Position numbers and translations under genes: made by a program | From: Microbacterium arabinogalactanolyticum | GTDB taxonomy: Bacteria; Actinomycetota; Actinomycetes; Actinomycetales; Microbacteriaceae | Direction of reading: 5' to 3' | DNA: 64,000 nt | Assembly (NCBI RefSeq): GCF_030268005.1 | Contig: NZ_BRZC01000004.1 | Location: 372,001-436,000 of the forward strand | The notes under the pieces: generated by a model | What the model was told of the DNA's origin: nothing | The model's database searches: none | Seen by the model: the letters and a program-made list of their open reading frames with translations, nothing else | Shown here: positions 49,236 to 55,616 of the stretch, piece by piece | How positions within the stretch are numbered: the first letter of the stretch is position 1 | How the letters are laid out: each line of letters opens with the position of its first letter

Positions 49236-49679
49236 TCAGGGACGGACGCGAGCGAGGCGGATCGCCTCGCGGATGCTCGCCCTGGCGTCCTTTCTGCGTC
49301 CGGACGCCTCCTGCACGACACCGAGCCGGTACCGGGCGCGCCAGTCGTCGGTGTCCGCGTCGGCCGCCGTCGTGTACTGCGCGATCATCGGCTCGACGTC
49401 CTCACGGAGCAGGCGCCCGCTCGGGCTCAGGGCCTCCGGTGCCTCGGGCATCCCACCCTCCCCGTCGAGCTGACGCCCGAGCCGGTCGGCGGAGAATCCG
49501 AACATCAGCTCGCGCACGAGCGCCCATCCGCCGATCACCGCGATGACGATCAGGCCCACCCCGAACGCGATCGACAGCGGAGTCGCGGCGGAGAACATGA
49601 GCACGGCGAACCAGGCGGCGACGACGACGTACAGGAAGAGCGCCGCGCCCATGACTGCGACGCCGATGCGAGAGCTCAT
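49236..49679 (-). CDS. Membrane protein with TPR-like tail
   Basis: 147 residues. Two membrane helices (about 5-27 and 35-55), then a cytoplasmic region with YRLGVVQEASGRRKDARASIREAIRLA, a TPR-like helical pair. Predicted leaderless (TAGGAT at 6 nt). No family recognised; the divergent partner is the ABC exporter unit. Confidence 0.7.
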   Translation of the reverse strand: MSSRIGVAVMGAALFLYVVVAAWFAVLMFSAATPLSIAFGVGLIVIAVIGGWALVRELMFGFSADRLGRQLDGEGGMPEAPEALSPSGRLLREDVEPMIAQYTTAADADTDDWRARYRLGVVQEASGRRKDARASIREAIRLARVRP

Positions 49680-49720: not shown

Positions 49721-49783
49721 GACAGCGACTGACAGTCGCCGACAGCGAACCGACAGTGCGACGACAGCGGCCGGGCGGATGCT
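49721..49783 (+). promoter_or_regulatory. SARP-type operator and promoter of the ABC exporter
   Basis: GACAG occurs five times, starting at 49721, 49731, 49741, 49752 and 49763 (spacing 10, 10, 11, 11). The heptamers are GACAGCG, GACAGTC, GACAGCG, GACAGTG, GACAGCG. The last ends exactly 8 nt before a hexamer GATGCT (49778-49783), which lies 6 nt before the exporter ATG. Heptamer direct repeats 8 nt from the -10 are the known pattern for SARP activators. Confidence 0.75.
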
Positions 49784-49789
49784 CGTCAC

Positions 49790-50800
49790 ATGACGAACTC
49801 CACCTCAGAATGGGCCATCGCGGCCGACGGACTCGTGAAGGTGTTCGGTGCGAACCGCGCAGTCGACGGCGTCGACCTGCGCGTGGCCACCGGCACCGTC
49901 TACGGAGTCCTCGGCCCGAACGGCGCCGGCAAGACCACCACCATCAACATGCTCGCGACTCTGATGCGTCCGGACGGCGGAGACGCCCGCATCTTCGGCC
50001 ATGACGTCGTCCGCGAGGCGCACATCGTCCGCCAGCTCATCGGCGTGACCGGCCAGTTCGCCTCGGTCGACGAGACGCTGTCGGCGAACGAGAACCTGAT
50101 GATCTTCGCGAGGCTGCTCGGGCTGACCCGCTCCGAGGCCCGCGCCAAGTCCGCGGATCTGCTCGAGCGGTTCGGGCTCACCGAGGCGGCGCGCCGTCCG
50201 CTCGCGCAGTTCTCCGGCGGCATGCGCCGACGCCTCGACCTCGCCGCCTCGCTCATCGCCCAGCCGCCGCTCATCTTCCTCGACGAGCCGACCACCGGCC
50301 TGGACCCGCGGACCCGCGGACAGATGTGGGACACCATCCGCGAGCTGGTCCGCACCGGATCCACCGTGATGCTGACCACGCAGTACCTCGACGAGGCAGA
50401 TCAGCTGGCCGACCGGATCGCCGTGATCGACCGCGGTCGCGTCGTCGCCGAGGGCTCGCCGGACGACCTCAAGGCATCCGTCGGAGCATCCTCGCTGCAG
50501 CTGAGACTCACGGAGCCCGCGGACGCCGAGGACGCGCTGCGCGCGATCGAGCGCGTGCTCGGCGTGCAGGGCGTGCTCTCGCCCGAGGCCGCCCGCATCA
50601 CCGCTCCGATGACCGACGCCGATCGGGTCGCGGACCTGCTCATCGTGCTCCGCGAGGCCGGCATCGGCCTCAACGAGATGAGCGTGCAGAAGCCCACTCT
50701 CGACGAGGTCTTCCTCACCATCACCGGTCACTCCACCGAGGCGGACACCGACGACACCGCGGCCCCGGCCGCCTCACAGAAGGAGGAGGTGCGCGCATGA
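49790..50800 (+). CDS. ABC exporter ATP-binding protein (DrrA-like)
   Basis: 336 residues. Walker A GPNGAGKTT (42-50), signature FSGGMRRRLDLA near 140, Walker B LIFLDEPTTGLD, and the C-terminal DrrA-type domain ending GHSTEA. Energises a two-gene drug/lipid exporter with the permease it overlaps by 4 nt. Regulated, I infer, by the SARP encoded downstream. Confidence 0.93.
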   Translation: MTNSTSEWAIAADGLVKVFGANRAVDGVDLRVATGTVYGVLGPNGAGKTTTINMLATLMRPDGGDARIFGHDVVREAHIVRQLIGVTGQFASVDETLSANENLMIFARLLGLTRSEARAKSADLLERFGLTEAARRPLAQFSGGMRRRLDLAASLIAQPPLIFLDEPTTGLDPRTRGQMWDTIRELVRTGSTVMLTTQYLDEADQLADRIAVIDRGRVVAEGSPDDLKASVGASSLQLRLTEPADAEDALRAIERVLGVQGVLSPEAARITAPMTDADRVADLLIVLREAGIGLNEMSVQKPTLDEVFLTITGHSTEADTDDTAAPAASQKEEVRA

Positions 50801-51627
50801 GCACTCTCGCCCCCACTGCCACCCGCATCACCCCGGCGTCCGAACGCCGGCTCAAGAACCACGCCGGTCTCGGCCTCGCGCTGCGCAACACCATCACGAT
50901 GGCCGGGCGCGGGCTCATCAAGATCCGCCGAACGCCGGAGCAGCTGATCGACGTCACGCTGCAGCCGATCCTGTTCACCCTGATGTTCACCTACATCTTC
51001 GGCGGCGCGATCTCAGGGGACGTGCAGTCCTACCTGCCGGTGATCATCCCGGGCATCCTGGTGCAGACCGTGATCACCACCTCGGTCGTCACCGGCGTGC
51101 AGCTCCGTGAGGACATGGACAAGGGCGTGTTCGACAGGTTCCGATCCCTGCCGATCGCACGCATCGCCCCACTGTCCGGCGCACTGCTGGCCGACACGGT
51201 CCGTTATGCGATCGCCACCGTGCTCACGTTCACCATGGGTGCGCTGATGGGCTTCCGTCCCGGCGGAGGCATCGCGTCGGTGATCGCGGCAGGACTGCTC
51301 GTGATCCTGTGCTCCTGGGCGGTCAGCTGGATCTTCGCATTCTTCGGGGTGATCGCGCGCACGGCGTCGAGCGTGCAGGGCATCTCGATGCTGATCCTGT
51401 TCCCGCTGACCTTCCTCTCGAACGCTTTCGTCCCGGTCGACACCATGCCCGGCTGGCTGCAGTGGTTCGTCAACATCAACCCGGTCTCGCACCTGGTGAC
51501 GGCTGTCCGCGATCTCACGGCGACCGGTGCGTTCGGTGCGGATGCCTGGATCTCGATCCTCGGCGCAGCCGTGATCGTCGCGATCTTCGCACCGCTCACC
51601 GTGCGGGCGTACATGCGCAAGGCCTGA
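50797..51627 (+). CDS. ABC exporter permease (DrrB-like, ABC-2)
   Basis: 276 residues, about six membrane helices with the ABC-2 signature region LFPLTFLSNAFVPVDTMPGWLQW and NPVSHLVTAVRDL. Partner of the ATPase; the two form a complete ABC-2 exporter in the cytoplasmic membrane. Substrate unknown: antibiotic, glycolipid or peptide are possible. Confidence 0.92.
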   Translation: MSTLAPTATRITPASERRLKNHAGLGLALRNTITMAGRGLIKIRRTPEQLIDVTLQPILFTLMFTYIFGGAISGDVQSYLPVIIPGILVQTVITTSVVTGVQLREDMDKGVFDRFRSLPIARIAPLSGALLADTVRYAIATVLTFTMGALMGFRPGGGIASVIAAGLLVILCSWAVSWIFAFFGVIARTASSVQGISMLILFPLTFLSNAFVPVDTMPGWLQWFVNINPVSHLVTAVRDLTATGAFGADAWISILGAAVIVAIFAPLTVRAYMRKA

Positions 51628-51675
51628 CGCCACAACAGAGGGACGTCCGCCGCCGGCGAGCGTCCCTCTCGGCGT
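51627..51675. terminator. Terminator hairpin after the exporter
   Basis: AGAGGGACG (51637-51645) pairs with CGTCCCTCT (51661-51669), with outer ACGCC (51627-51631)/GGCGT (51671-51675) giving a two-part stem. It lies between convergent genes. Confidence 0.65.
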
Positions 51676-51708
51676 CCACGGTCCCGCGTGCCGTCCGGCG
51701 CGGCGCGA

Positions 51709-54700
51709 TCAGCGCCCCGCGAGCACCGCCAGGCCGCGCTCGACCCGCCGCCCCGCGGGCAGCGCGGCGATCTCCGCACGCACTCGTGCGACGGTCGCCG
51801 GACCGGCCACGCGCTCGGCATCCGCCAGATGCGCCGCGAGGTCGAGCGTCGGCATGTTCTGCCTGCCGCCGAGGATCTCGGACAGCGCGACGGCCTCGAC
51901 CGCGCGCTCGACGTCGCCGGGGCTGCGGAGCGCCCACGCCGACCAGCCCAGCAGCGCGGTGCCCAGAACGGGTCGGTCCACCCCTTCGCGGCGCTGCCTG
52001 CAGGCGGCGATCGTCCGGGTGCGCAGCCTCCGCTCCCAGACGGCGCACTCCTCGGCGCTCAGGCGCAGCGACCGGACCGCCGCCGACAGATAGCCCGACA
52101 TCGCCATGAGGTACCAGGGCGAGCGTCGCGTGGCCGGTTCGGCGAAGGCCCGCATCGCTGCCGTGAACGACGCGGATGCCGCAGCGGCATCGCCGTCCAG
52201 AAGATCCGCCTCGGCGAGCCCGTACCGGCCGATGGAGGTGAGCTCCAGGCCCTCCTGGCTGAGACCGCCCTCGTCGACGAGTCGCTGGAACAGGGGGCGA
52301 GCCTCGCCGGTGCGCCCCAGGCGCAGCAGCGCGCCGCCGCGGACCCAGTCCTGCTGGCTCAGCTGATCCTGCGCGTCGTACTCCCGGAAGACCTCGGCGG
52401 CGCGGTCCAGCCAGACCAGCGCCTCCTCGGCGTCCCCGGTCTGCGCGGCCAGCTGGGCGGCGAGATCGGCGGCCATGCCCTCGGCCCACCGCTCGCCGAT
52501 CCTCCGGGCCCGCGCCCAGGCGCTGCGGGCCGCGTTCATCGCGGACTCCGCCTCACCGTCGTTCTCCTCGGCCTGGGACACGAGGATGTCCGCGGCGAGC
52601 TGCGCACGCGGGTCGGTCTGCCCCGCACGGATCCCCGCCGCGCTCGAGGTCTCTCCGCGCGCCGCGGCGTCGAGCGCCTCGGTCAGCAGCTGCCAGGCGG
52701 GGGCGAGATGCTCTCCGGCACGCGCCTTGTGCAGCCGCAGCAGTGCCAGGCCTCTGGTCGCCCGGGGATCGCCGCTGATCAGGCATCCGAGCACGCCCAT
52801 CGCCAGCGTGATGACGATCCTGTCCGCGAGGATCCGGTCAGGATCGGACGAGGCGGCCGCATCGATCATGCGCGGCGCATATCCGATGAACTCCGTGAAG
52901 GAGCCCCGGATGAACCAGGACTGGCCGAGTACGGCGAAGAGCAGCACGGCGTCGGCATCGCGGCGCTCCGTCAGCAGATGCCGCAGGATGTGGACGAGGT
53001 TGTCGTGCTCCCGGACGACGGCCAGATGCTGCGCAGCGGTGAGGCCCGCGGGGAACAGCCGCCCTCCCTCGCCCTGCTCACGGGCGAACGCGGTCGCCCA
53101 GTCGATCACGGCCTCCCAGGCCGTCCCCTCGCTTCCGGCGTCCTGCAGTCGCTGCTGACCGAACTCGCGCACGGTCTCGAGCATCCGGAAGCGCACCTCC
53201 GCGCCCGCGGCGCTCTCGATCACACCGAGGAGGGAGTGCGAGACCAGCATGTCGAGCACGTCATCTCCCTGCGCATCGCGGAGCACCGCCTCGGCGATCG
53301 ATGCGGAGAATCCGCCCGGCAACACCGAGAGCAGAGCGAGCGCGCGCTGCGCCTCGGGCGCCAGCAGGTCCCAGCTCCACTCGATCACCGCCTGCAGGGT
53401 GCGGTGCCGCTCCGGCGCGGATCTGTCGCCGGTCGTCAGCAGCGCGAATCGGTTCTCGAGCCGCGACTCGATCTGCTCGGGCGTCATCGTGCGCACGCGT
53501 GCGGCGGCGAGCTCGAGCGCCAGCGGCAGCCCGTCGAGGTGGCGGCACAGCCGCGCGACGATCTCGAGGTCGAGGGTCGCACCGGGACGGGCGGCGTGCG
53601 CCCTCTCCATGAAGAGCCGGACGGCAGGAGCCGCGGGATCGGCGTCGATCGTCAGCGGATCGAGCGGCAGCACCTGCTCGGCGGCGACCGCCAGCGGCGT
53701 GCGGCTCGTCGTGACGATCCGCAGCGTCGGCACGGCCGCCAGCAGCTCGGCTGCGCACTGCGCGGCACCGTCGATGACCTGCTCGCAGTTGTCCAGCACC
53801 AGGAGCGTGCGCCGCTCCCCCAGCATCGCCGTCACGCGCGCCATCAGGTCGGGTCTCGGCACCGTCTCGTTCATCCGCCGGCCGGCCGTGATCTCGCTGA
53901 TCCCGAGTACGGCGGCGACCGCGATCGGCACCCCGGTGTCCTCCCGGACGCCGGCGAGGGGGACGACGACGACCGCGGGCGCATCGGCGTCGAGGGCGAT
54001 CGCCTGCGCCAGCCGCGTCTTGCCCAGGCCGCCGGCGCCGAGGATCGTCAGAAGCCGCGTCCGCGCGAGCAGTGCTTTCGCCTCGCGCAGCACGTCATCA
54101 CGGCCGATGAGCTCGTTCGGAGCGGCCTGGACGCCGATGCGCACCCGCGCCCCGACCTGATCCGAGGTCTGCAGCAGCCGCGCGTTGAGCTCGACTGCGG
54201 CGGGGGACGGCGACGCACCGAGCTCGTCCCGCAGTCGAGCGCGCAGGTCGGCGAAGACCGAGAGAGCCTCGGGCGCGCGGCCGGCGCGCGCCAGCGACTC
54301 CATCAGCGCCACGTGGACGCTGTCGTCGAGTGGGCGCTCGCCCGCCAGGGCAGCCAGCAGCGAGATGGCATCGGCGTCTCGACCGTCGTCGGAGTAGGCG
54401 GCGGCGAGACCGGAGCGGATCGTGTCGAGCAGCGCGCTCGCGGTGCGGGAGAGCTCTCCGGCCACGGGTGCGTCACCGAGATCGAGGCCCGGCTCGCCGC
54501 GCCACAGCGCGACCGCGGACTCGAGCAGCTCGATCCGCCCGGGATCCCGATCAGACCGGCTCGTCGCCTCCAGGACGATCTCCCGCGCTCGCTGCAGGTC
54601 CGTATCTTCGGCGCCCAGGGCGTAGCCGCCCGGAGCGCTGCGTACGAGTGCCGAGCCGCCTGCCGCGCGTGCCCTGGAGACCAGCGTCTGCAGGGCGGCC

Positions 54701-54873
54701 TTCGGATTCTGCGGCTGGTCCTCGCCCCAGATGTCGTCGGCGAGAGCCACGACGGAGCGGACCGTGCCGCTGCCGGTCAGCGCGAGCGCGGCGAGCAGCG
54801 CTCTCATCGCCGCGCCGCCCGCGTCGTGGCCGGCCACCTGCACCGGGCCGAGCACGCCGACGGGGAAGGTCAT
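51709..54873 (-). CDS. AfsR/SARP-type transcriptional regulator with NB-ARC and TPR domains
   Basis: 1054 residues. Winged helix (about 1-95, DIWGEDQPQNPKAALQTLVSR and VRSAPGGYAL), bacterial transcriptional activation domain (about 96-235), then an NB-ARC-like ATPase: GAGGLGKT (279-286), LLVLDNCEQV near 360, TTSRTPL. The rest is TPR-like repeats. It resembles AfsR-type activators of secondary metabolism. The ATG overlaps the dapB stop as ATGA. Likely target is the GACAG repeat array upstream of the convergent ABC exporter. Confidence 0.9.
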   Translation of the reverse strand: MTFPVGVLGPVQVAGHDAGGAAMRALLAALALTGSGTVRSVVALADDIWGEDQPQNPKAALQTLVSRARAAGGSALVRSAPGGYALGAEDTDLQRAREIVLEATSRSDRDPGRIELLESAVALWRGEPGLDLGDAPVAGELSRTASALLDTIRSGLAAAYSDDGRDADAISLLAALAGERPLDDSVHVALMESLARAGRAPEALSVFADLRARLRDELGASPSPAAVELNARLLQTSDQVGARVRIGVQAAPNELIGRDDVLREAKALLARTRLLTILGAGGLGKTRLAQAIALDADAPAVVVVPLAGVREDTGVPIAVAAVLGISEITAGRRMNETVPRPDLMARVTAMLGERRTLLVLDNCEQVIDGAAQCAAELLAAVPTLRIVTTSRTPLAVAAEQVLPLDPLTIDADPAAPAVRLFMERAHAARPGATLDLEIVARLCRHLDGLPLALELAAARVRTMTPEQIESRLENRFALLTTGDRSAPERHRTLQAVIEWSWDLLAPEAQRALALLSVLPGGFSASIAEAVLRDAQGDDVLDMLVSHSLLGVIESAAGAEVRFRMLETVREFGQQRLQDAGSEGTAWEAVIDWATAFAREQGEGGRLFPAGLTAAQHLAVVREHDNLVHILRHLLTERRDADAVLLFAVLGQSWFIRGSFTEFIGYAPRMIDAAASSDPDRILADRIVITLAMGVLGCLISGDPRATRGLALLRLHKARAGEHLAPAWQLLTEALDAAARGETSSAAGIRAGQTDPRAQLAADILVSQAEENDGEAESAMNAARSAWARARRIGERWAEGMAADLAAQLAAQTGDAEEALVWLDRAAEVFREYDAQDQLSQQDWVRGGALLRLGRTGEARPLFQRLVDEGGLSQEGLELTSIGRYGLAEADLLDGDAAAASASFTAAMRAFAEPATRRSPWYLMAMSGYLSAAVRSLRLSAEECAVWERRLRTRTIAACRQRREGVDRPVLGTALLGWSAWALRSPGDVERAVEAVALSEILGGRQNMPTLDLAAHLADAERVAGPATVARVRAEIAALPAGRRVERGLAVLAGR

Positions 54874-55616
54874 GCCTTCGGGCGCAGGCCGAGGTCGATG
54901 ATGTTCTCGAGTCCGATCACGAGGTCGCGGTTGTCGCGCGCGAACGGCACCGCCAGCCGGATGCCGGGTGCGTAGGCGGCTGCGGAGTCCACCGTGTCGT
55001 GCACGATCGTCAGGGACTCCCCTGCGCCGGACAGGATCGCCTCCTGCCTGGCGATCACGCCCGGCCGACGCAGGGAGTGCACCGGGATGCCCGCGACCTG
55101 CTGCCCCCGGGCGCGCTGGTCGACGTGCGGGGCGGCGAACGGTCCCTGCTCCTCACGCGCTTCGGCCATCTGCTCCGCGGTACGCACCGCGGTGCCGCTG
55201 GGAGAGTCGATCTTGGAGTCGCGATGGGCTTCTACGATCTCGGCGAAGGGGAAGAACGGCGCGGCGGCGGCCGCCAGCGCCGTGCCCAGCGCAGAGCCCA
55301 GCGAGAAGTTGGGAATGTAGACCACACCCGTCCCGGCGGAGGCCTGCAGCGGACGCACCAGGGAGATGCGCTCCTGAGACCAGCCGGAGGTGCCGACGAG
55401 GATGCTGATCCCGCGCTCGATCGCCGCGCGGACCACCTCGATGCTCACGGCCGGGGTGGACGCGTCGACGACGAGGTCGGCACCGTCGAGCTCGCTGAGA
55501 TCGCTCGCGGAACCGAGGACATTGCGCACCTCGAAGCCGTCGAGCTCGTCGATCACCGCGTGGATGATGCGGCCGAGCTTGCCTGATCCGCCGACGAGGG
55601 CAACCTGAGTGGTCAT
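54870..55616 (-). CDS. dapB: 4-hydroxy-tetrahydrodipicolinate reductase
   Basis: 248 residues. NAD(P)H-dependent reductase after DapA. GGSGKLGR (9-16), EAHRDSKIDSPSGTA with the catalytic His/Lys, and PNFSLGSALG are standard. Leaderless by its -10. Overlaps the SARP gene, so the regulator's translation depends on dapB. Confidence 0.96.
   Translation of the reverse strand: MTTQVALVGGSGKLGRIIHAVIDELDGFEVRNVLGSASDLSELDGADLVVDASTPAVSIEVVRAAIERGISILVGTSGWSQERISLVRPLQASAGTGVVYIPNFSLGSALGTALAAAAAPFFPFAEIVEAHRDSKIDSPSGTAVRTAEQMAEAREEQGPFAAPHVDQRARGQQVAGIPVHSLRRPGVIARQEAILSGAGESLTIVHDTVDSAAAYAPGIRLAVPFARDNRDLVIGLENIIDLGLRPKA

Follow-up and report, generated by a model that had tools for sequence, protein, structure and literature searches.

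To our knowledge, work on Streptomyces antibiotic regulatory proteins (SARPs) has dealt for the most part with their role in switching on antibiotic clusters in Streptomyces. One of them, DnrI of Streptomyces peucetius, is a small SARP, and a 2017 study by Prija is said to deal with DnrI and drrAB/drrC. DnrI serves the daunorubicin cluster and is linked with efflux genes (PMC11676270). At the afsS promoter of Streptomyces coelicolor, a dimer of the SARP AfsR, carrying sigma region 4 on top, occupies a box that overlaps the -35, AfsR residues T88 and R92 contact bases, and the -10 reads CACTGT (PMC10936776). More generally, the direct repeats of SARP promoters are placed 11 or 22 bp apart, with the 3' repeat 8 bp from the -10 (PMC10936776; also PMC4393881). 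PimR, a SARP-LAL regulator acting at pimM, binds cooperatively as monomers and has three repeats in its main operator (PMC5930380). Here we compare with these systems a stretch of 64,000 nucleotides from Microbacterium arabinogalactanolyticum (contig NZ_BRZC01000004.1, positions 372,001 to 436,000; "the window" throughout), in which a large AfsR-type SARP gene converges with a two-gene ABC exporter whose promoter carries five phased GACAG repeats. The elements of the locus are listed below.

49721..49769, + strand: GACAG direct-repeat array of five copies, a likely SARP binding array.
49778..49783, + strand: -10-like hexamer GATGCT, 8 nt past the last heptamer, which ends at 49769.
49790..50800, + strand: DrrA-like ABC-2 exporter ATPase, with matches to TIGR01188 drrA (356.6 bits, cut-off 312.45), PF00005 and PF13732.
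50797..51627, + strand: ABC-2 permease (PF01061), its start overlapping the ATPase stop (ATGA).
51709..54873, - strand: large AfsR-type SARP of 1054 aa with a BTAD match (PF03704, 6.2e-21), convergent with the exporter.
54154..54873, - strand: SARP domain (winged helix and BTAD), residues 1-240 of that protein, from predicted structure and PDB match.

From this arrangement and its recurrence in relatives, we conclude that the AfsR-type SARP encoded next door probably binds the GACAG array, and that it would recruit RNA polymerase and switch the DrrAB-like exporter on. Binding of the repeats by this regulator is likely because they recur with a nearby SARP gene in relatives. The link between SARP and exporter is well supported by comparison, in that repeats, phase, distance to the -10 and convergent SARP gene recur together.

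On the + strand the GACAG copies start at 49721, 49731, 49741, 49752 and 49763, giving steps of 10, 10, 11 and 11 bp. The sequence-only reading had described five GACAG heptamers spaced 10-11 bp, the last one 8 nt from the -10, in the known geometry of SARP promoters. The coordinates agree with this observation and the layout matches the published description (PMC10936776), two of the four steps being 10 bp; the heptamer form GACAGYG, however, holds in only four of the five copies (the second reads GACAGTC), and the constant part is GACAG. The exporter ATG lies at 49790, 6 nt downstream of GATGCT, and the exporter transcript is likely leaderless. No TTGACA-like -35 was found 17 nt upstream of GATGCT, where positions 49755-49760 read AGTGCG; in the absence of a recognizable -35 element, the promoter probably depends on an activator and would be silent if the SARP were missing. 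Among all pentamers, GACAG is the only one to form a chain of at least four with 10/11-bp steps in the window. When 100 order-2 Markov surrogates of the window were examined, the longest chain of any pentamer was two in 22 cases, three in 76 and four in 2, and a chain of five never appeared. Over the 3.67-Mb genome, the window array is the only one with at least three GACAG at these spacings.

The regulator gene, said earlier to lie convergently beyond the exporter and to encode an AfsR/SARP protein, is indeed found there, with 81 nt between the exporter end (51627) and the SARP gene end (51709). Its BTAD match scores 75.7 bits (cut-off 22.1), and a weak NB-ARC match falls just below its cut-off (22.1 bits against 23.5); the Pfam scan of the protein matched no TPR model and, at E 0.001, no separate winged-helix model. 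Homology to AfsR covers residues 5-573 (phmmer, 1.5e-22), but the window SARP is not AfsR itself, because it scores only 113.9 of 1430 with the AfsR equivalog model. In the AlphaFold model of residues 1-260 the mean predicted local distance difference test score is 92.7; the best PDB match is AfsR in the initiation complex 8k60 (template modelling score, TM, 0.75), followed by EmbR (TM 0.78). Together with the BTAD match, the agreement with 8k60 and EmbR over the full domain gives the AfsR/SARP order of an N-terminal winged helix followed by BTAD. At the recognition-helix positions T88, S91, R92 and R94, with which AfsR contacts bases and backbone, the window SARP carries T, S, R and R. Its S66, R67 and R69 are invariant in 32 aligned SARPs, whilst the T position varies.

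The comparison with relatives was based on a table of 106 exporter loci from the genus and the family; in addition to the genus loci, 51 loci were fetched from the 93 exporter-bearing genomes of the family scan, and these represent all 27 exporter genera. L134 was dropped beforehand as it is not an exporter locus, L093, L100, L104 and L109 were replaced by the longer L254, L252, L258 and L253, and L131-L133 were retained as SARP-less loci; phased repeats were defined as two or more GNNAGY or GACAG. A SARP-like gene is present within the fetched flank at 95 of the 106 loci and is convergent to the exporter in every one of the 95. Two or more phased repeats stand at 92 of these 95 loci versus 2 of the 11 without a SARP (Fisher 3.5e-9, uncorrected for relatedness). 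The test proposed beforehand, that the repeats might not be conserved in relatives carrying both genes, thus failed to refute the proposal. The SARP-like genes behind the exporters are often only 32-43% alike, and a SARP like that of the window occurs in 19 of 198 genus genomes (E 1e-100). Two layouts recur in the genus: steps of 10-10-11-11, as in the window, and of 11-20-11, in which the middle slot is empty and the helical phase is kept. Among four close relatives, none of the 25 repeat columns varies, as against 11 of the 24 spacer columns.

The distance between array and -10 was examined in 97 loci, from which SARP-less exporter loci were left out except L219 and L254. Counted from the first base of the last repeat, a hexamer of the form NANNNT begins 15-16 nt downstream in 87 of them and one repeat slot further in 4; at the remaining 6, none was found at the places tested. 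A -10-like hexamer thus stands at the tested distances in 91/97 loci, compared with 708/4850 random anchors at the same six distances; the spacing is the one described for SARP promoters. At four of the six exceptions (L089, L090, L252 and L258) a further GACAG about 31 nt on restores the spacing, as judged by eye. The hexamers CACTCT, CACTGT, CATCCT and GATGCT found at these promoters resemble the afsS -10, CACTGT.

The number of arrays per genome carries no weight of its own. Arrays of three GACAG occur in 21 of the 198 genomes of the genus and arrays of the permuted control GAGAC in 19; because the two are about equally common, array frequency alone is unremarkable, and per-genome counts were rejected as evidence. 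A control with the reversed motif was void, GACAG being identical when read backwards. What stands out is the placement of the arrays, not their frequency. In the 198-genome scan, 15 of the 22 distinct GACAG array places lie at the exporter promoter, and in a second scan, in which coordinates were compared with permease matches, 21 of 25 do; of about 20 distinct GAGAC places, compared by eye, none does. At the genus loci, the 150 nt before the exporters contain 118 phased GACAG pairs, against 1 elsewhere in 1.25 Mb of surrounding strand sequence. The array places away from exporters (7 in the first scan, 4 in the second) are mostly inside long open frames or simple repeats, as judged from the frames; the promoter-like ones are in G110 and in G182, the latter a relic. 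In G110 (L018, reverse complement ~1501-1527), three GACAG and a TACCCT at the SARP distance precede a likely leaderless ATG of a frame that resembles a Na+/H+ antiporter, a call made by reading the sequence and with no family search. This antiporter is a possible second SARP target; the G110 genome also has the SARP-exporter module.

How the array might work can be proposed by analogy. SARP protomers would probably bind side by side, and the two repeats nearest the gene, which begin at -38 and -27 relative to the ATG, would stand in for the AfsR box that substitutes for a -35. The bound SARP would hold the sigma factor at the -35 place, as described for AfsR (PMC10936776). The three further upstream repeats probably add cooperative loading and raise occupancy, as the example of PimR suggests. 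The ATPase-type and C-terminal part of the SARP probably keeps it inactive until a signal arrives, perhaps the exporter's substrate; the transcript would then begin at the ATG or close to it.

Set beside the described systems, the locus is closest to AfsR/afsS. In common are a SARP domain followed by a nucleotide-binding domain, here only a probable one (over the homologous residues 5-573), the fold and the T88/R92 positions, as well as 11-bp direct repeats whose 3' copy lies 8 bp from a weak -10 (CACTGT there; GATGCT, CACTCT and others here). It differs in that afsS has two repeats (PMC10936776), whereas here there are five with other letters, the likely target is the adjacent exporter operon and the SARP is convergent. 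Large SARPs of the AfsR type have a nucleotide-binding and a TPR domain behind the SARP domain, and Pfam matches no TPR repeats in the window protein. With DnrI and drrAB/drrC it shares a SARP linked to a DrrAB-type exporter; DnrI, however, regulates the daunorubicin cluster, whereas here a large SARP, the only BTAD match found, stands with no cluster seen nearby. The operator of PimR likewise has heptamers with 10- and 11-bp steps, but its heptamer is CGGCAAG, PimR is a pathway regulator, and its operator stays clear of the -35 (PMC5930380). EmbR of Mycobacterium tuberculosis shares the winged helix and BTAD fold but ends in an FHA domain (PMC10936776), where the window SARP has an NB-ARC-like part. 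In PMC we found no paper joining SARPs with exporters in Microbacteriaceae, a weak negative as most subscription papers lie outside PMC. SARP control of a DrrAB exporter has a precedent in the daunorubicin cluster; what is new here is a module in which a large SARP is paired with a single exporter and a single array and no biosynthetic cluster was seen nearby.

Several observations weigh against this interpretation. Firstly, shared ancestry inflates the co-occurrence counts, and most exporters lacking both SARP and repeats are either more diverged (permease 44-70% identical: L131-L133, L242, L245-L248, L250) or from another phylum. Secondly, array and SARP do not always go together: L205, L208 and L211, and also L278 and L336 in the scan of named genomes, have a SARP and no array by motif, whilst L254 has an array and no nearby SARP, a SARP 52% alike lying elsewhere in that genome (L134). 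At L219 (G321) three phased GTAAG precede the exporter with no SARP within ~21 kb downstream (L266), the search being confined to that flank, and G182 keeps an array before a 47-aa ATPase stub with no BTAD match. Thirdly, the hexamer GATGCT is far from TATAAT. Finally, PF03704 finds only one BTAD protein in this genome, but this does not exclude a further SARP because the BTAD model misses the SARPs of some relatives (G007 gives no match at E 0.001, yet L267 shows a SARP).

These points leave room for other explanations. It has been suggested that the regulator governs self-resistance or export, and the first half of this proposal corresponds to a producer whose biosynthetic cluster lies elsewhere in the genome and is also under SARP control. 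DnrI and drrAB/drrC provide a precedent for SARP control of an in-cluster exporter, but the genome has no second array of at least three repeats, and no polyketide-synthase, peptide-synthetase or similar cluster domain was detected in the 27 window proteins scanned, a scan that did not extend to the other window genes or the rest of the genome. The earlier statement that no biosynthetic gene cluster is present holds to that extent. The exporter, moreover, occurs in 27 of the 85 genera of the family; in 23 of these 27, the fetched loci include a SARP, and the genes alongside, dapB for example, vary from locus to locus. We consider producer self-resistance unlikely: control of export stands, being supported by comparison, whereas the self-resistance part does not, and a general export or intrinsic-tolerance role would be a better fit to the wide spread of the exporter, which extends to Bacillota.

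A second possibility is that a response regulator of the OmpR/PhoB type, or another winged-helix regulator, uses the array whilst the SARP encoded nearby acts elsewhere. The DNA-binding domains of SARPs are similar to OmpR (PMC4393881), and the flanks fetched around the Bacillota orthologs of the exporter contain no SARP-like gene, a different direct repeat often being present. In Actinomycetes, however, the repeats and the SARP gene occur together, no response regulator was seen among the 7 proteins scanned around the array, and the promoter geometry is that of SARPs (PMC10936776); such a regulator is quite improbable here. It is more improbable still that the SARP binds the array as a repressor, the exporter remaining off until a signal releases it. 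The array extends across the -35 region and stops 8 nt short of the -10, a position in which a bound protein might act as a block, but no -35 is seen, which makes an activator likely, and the same position is activating for AfsR (PMC10936776). That the array is a chance tandem repeat with no function is hardly credible, as the near-equal genome counts of GACAG and GAGAC arrays are outweighed by the placement of the arrays, the invariant repeat columns in four relatives, the kept -10 distance and the surrogates.

The Bacillota comparison comes from a scan of named genomes for the exporter, of which the best 80 of 577 confirmed places were analyzed; L282 was masked with N, and several actinobacterial rows duplicate contigs of the genus and family set. 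A SARP-like gene is present in the fetched flank at 25 of these 80 (Microbacterium, Leucobacter, Oerskovia, Humibacillus, Mycetocola and Micropruina among them), and 23 of the 25 have phased repeats. The 54 unmasked loci with no SARP-like gene in the fetched flank are all from Bacillota; 52 lack such repeats and 2 have a pair by motif, and the permease of the Bacillota exporters is 76-82% identical. Among the genera in which this exporter is widespread are Paenibacillus, Bacillus, Cohnella and Brevibacillus (L279-L347). At 36 of the 54 loci a different direct repeat, GTTTACATTCAGTTTA or GTTCATATTCAGTTCAT, forms a phased GTTYA pair, and 35 neighbouring pairs are spaced exactly 11 bp. The promoter has perhaps been rewired between phyla, possibly for an OmpR-type regulator. 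Because base composition differs too, the Bacillota loci serve as a contrast and not as a clean control.

Returning to the SARP as the probable activator, the letters of the repeat may bear on how it reads DNA. Outside the genus the repeats are often GTAAG, GTCAG, GTGAG or GCAAG with the same 11-bp step and a retained G..AG core, and some genera keep GACAG. In a 95-row table, 58 loci have repeats with mostly A as second letter, and 54 of these carry Pro at AfsR position 82; at 31 loci T, C or G prevails, and 25 of 31 have a residue other than Pro there, 6 rows being ties; leaving out L134, which is not an exporter promoter, and the badly aligned L215, the latter figure becomes 24 of 29. By mutual information with the repeat letters, positions 80, 82 and 81, in the turn and at the first residue of the recognition helix, rank second, fifth and sixth, but the first and third ranks go to columns outside the DNA-binding part. 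A tree of the SARP C-terminal parts gave 5 supported independent pairs, in which position 80 changes the same way in 4.1/5 on average and position 82 in 2.5/5; as there are only 5 such pairs, neither position can reach significance. A recognition code as an established result was set aside for this scarcity of independent changes, and the pattern is a lead only.

The exporter itself is widely distributed. Its permease is found in 54 of 198 genus genomes (E 1e-60) and in 93 of 398 family genomes, and an order-level scan found the exporter in 90 of 297 genomes (E 1e-60); the closest named exporter among the matches listed is that of M. bovistercoris (93%). The ATPase passes the cut-off of the DrrA subfamily model, but the permease falls short of the cut-offs of the DrrB-type models that it matches (TIGR00025, 92.1 against 146.9; TIGR01247, 72.3 against 223.05), and for this reason the pair is named DrrAB-like and not DrrAB. 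Two loci appear to be degenerate. In G091 (L128) the permease frame contains TGA, the SARP match falls short of the gene's length and does not coincide with the longest frame, and five GACAG remain; this locus may be decaying while its array persists. In G182 (L135 1501-1536; L256 ~2004) an array precedes an ATPase frame that breaks off after its first 47 residues, and this genome gives neither a permease match nor a BTAD match.

Two neighbours of the module complete the description. Divergent from the exporter in the window (49236-49679, - strand) is a small membrane/TPR-like gene with, by eye, its own TAGGAT 6 nt before the ATG; it is an unlikely target of the array because a relative is present at only 7 of 56 genus rows. 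On the other side, directly upstream of the SARP gene, lies the following gene.

54870..55616, - strand: dapB (TIGR00036), overlapping the SARP gene by 4 nt.

Given this position and overlap, the SARP is likely co-transcribed with dapB. The adjacency is found in 6 genus loci including the window, which are the closest ones, and was not seen in the fetched flanks of the other genus loci; the check covered genus loci and not those of the family. Membership in a dapB operon was therefore rejected as a general feature. In this clade, the overlap suggests steady SARP synthesis from a housekeeping operon, as would suit a sensor that is always made and activated by a signal.

Combined, these comparisons raise a broader possibility, which we put forward tentatively and regard as somewhat doubtful. 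A branch of SARPs may have left the antibiotic clusters to become, across Microbacteriaceae and other Actinomycetes, single proteins that both sense a drug and switch an intrinsic exporter, in which the C-terminal part would sense the compound and the SARP part would stack on a 10-11-bp phased array that replaces the -35; the repeat letters (GACAG versus GTAAG/GTCAG/GTGAG) would co-change with AfsR positions 80-82, and in Bacillota the exporter would have come under another 11-bp repeat. The naturally occurring range of repeat letters and recognition loops constitutes a data set for the DNA-recognition code of SARPs. With one regulator, one known array, a pairing that is family-wide and no other BTAD match in this genome, the locus would be a very simple natural SARP circuit, suited to asking which signal the ATPase and C-terminal portions of large SARPs respond to. 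If the proposal is true, many Actinomycetes would possess an inducible intrinsic export system.

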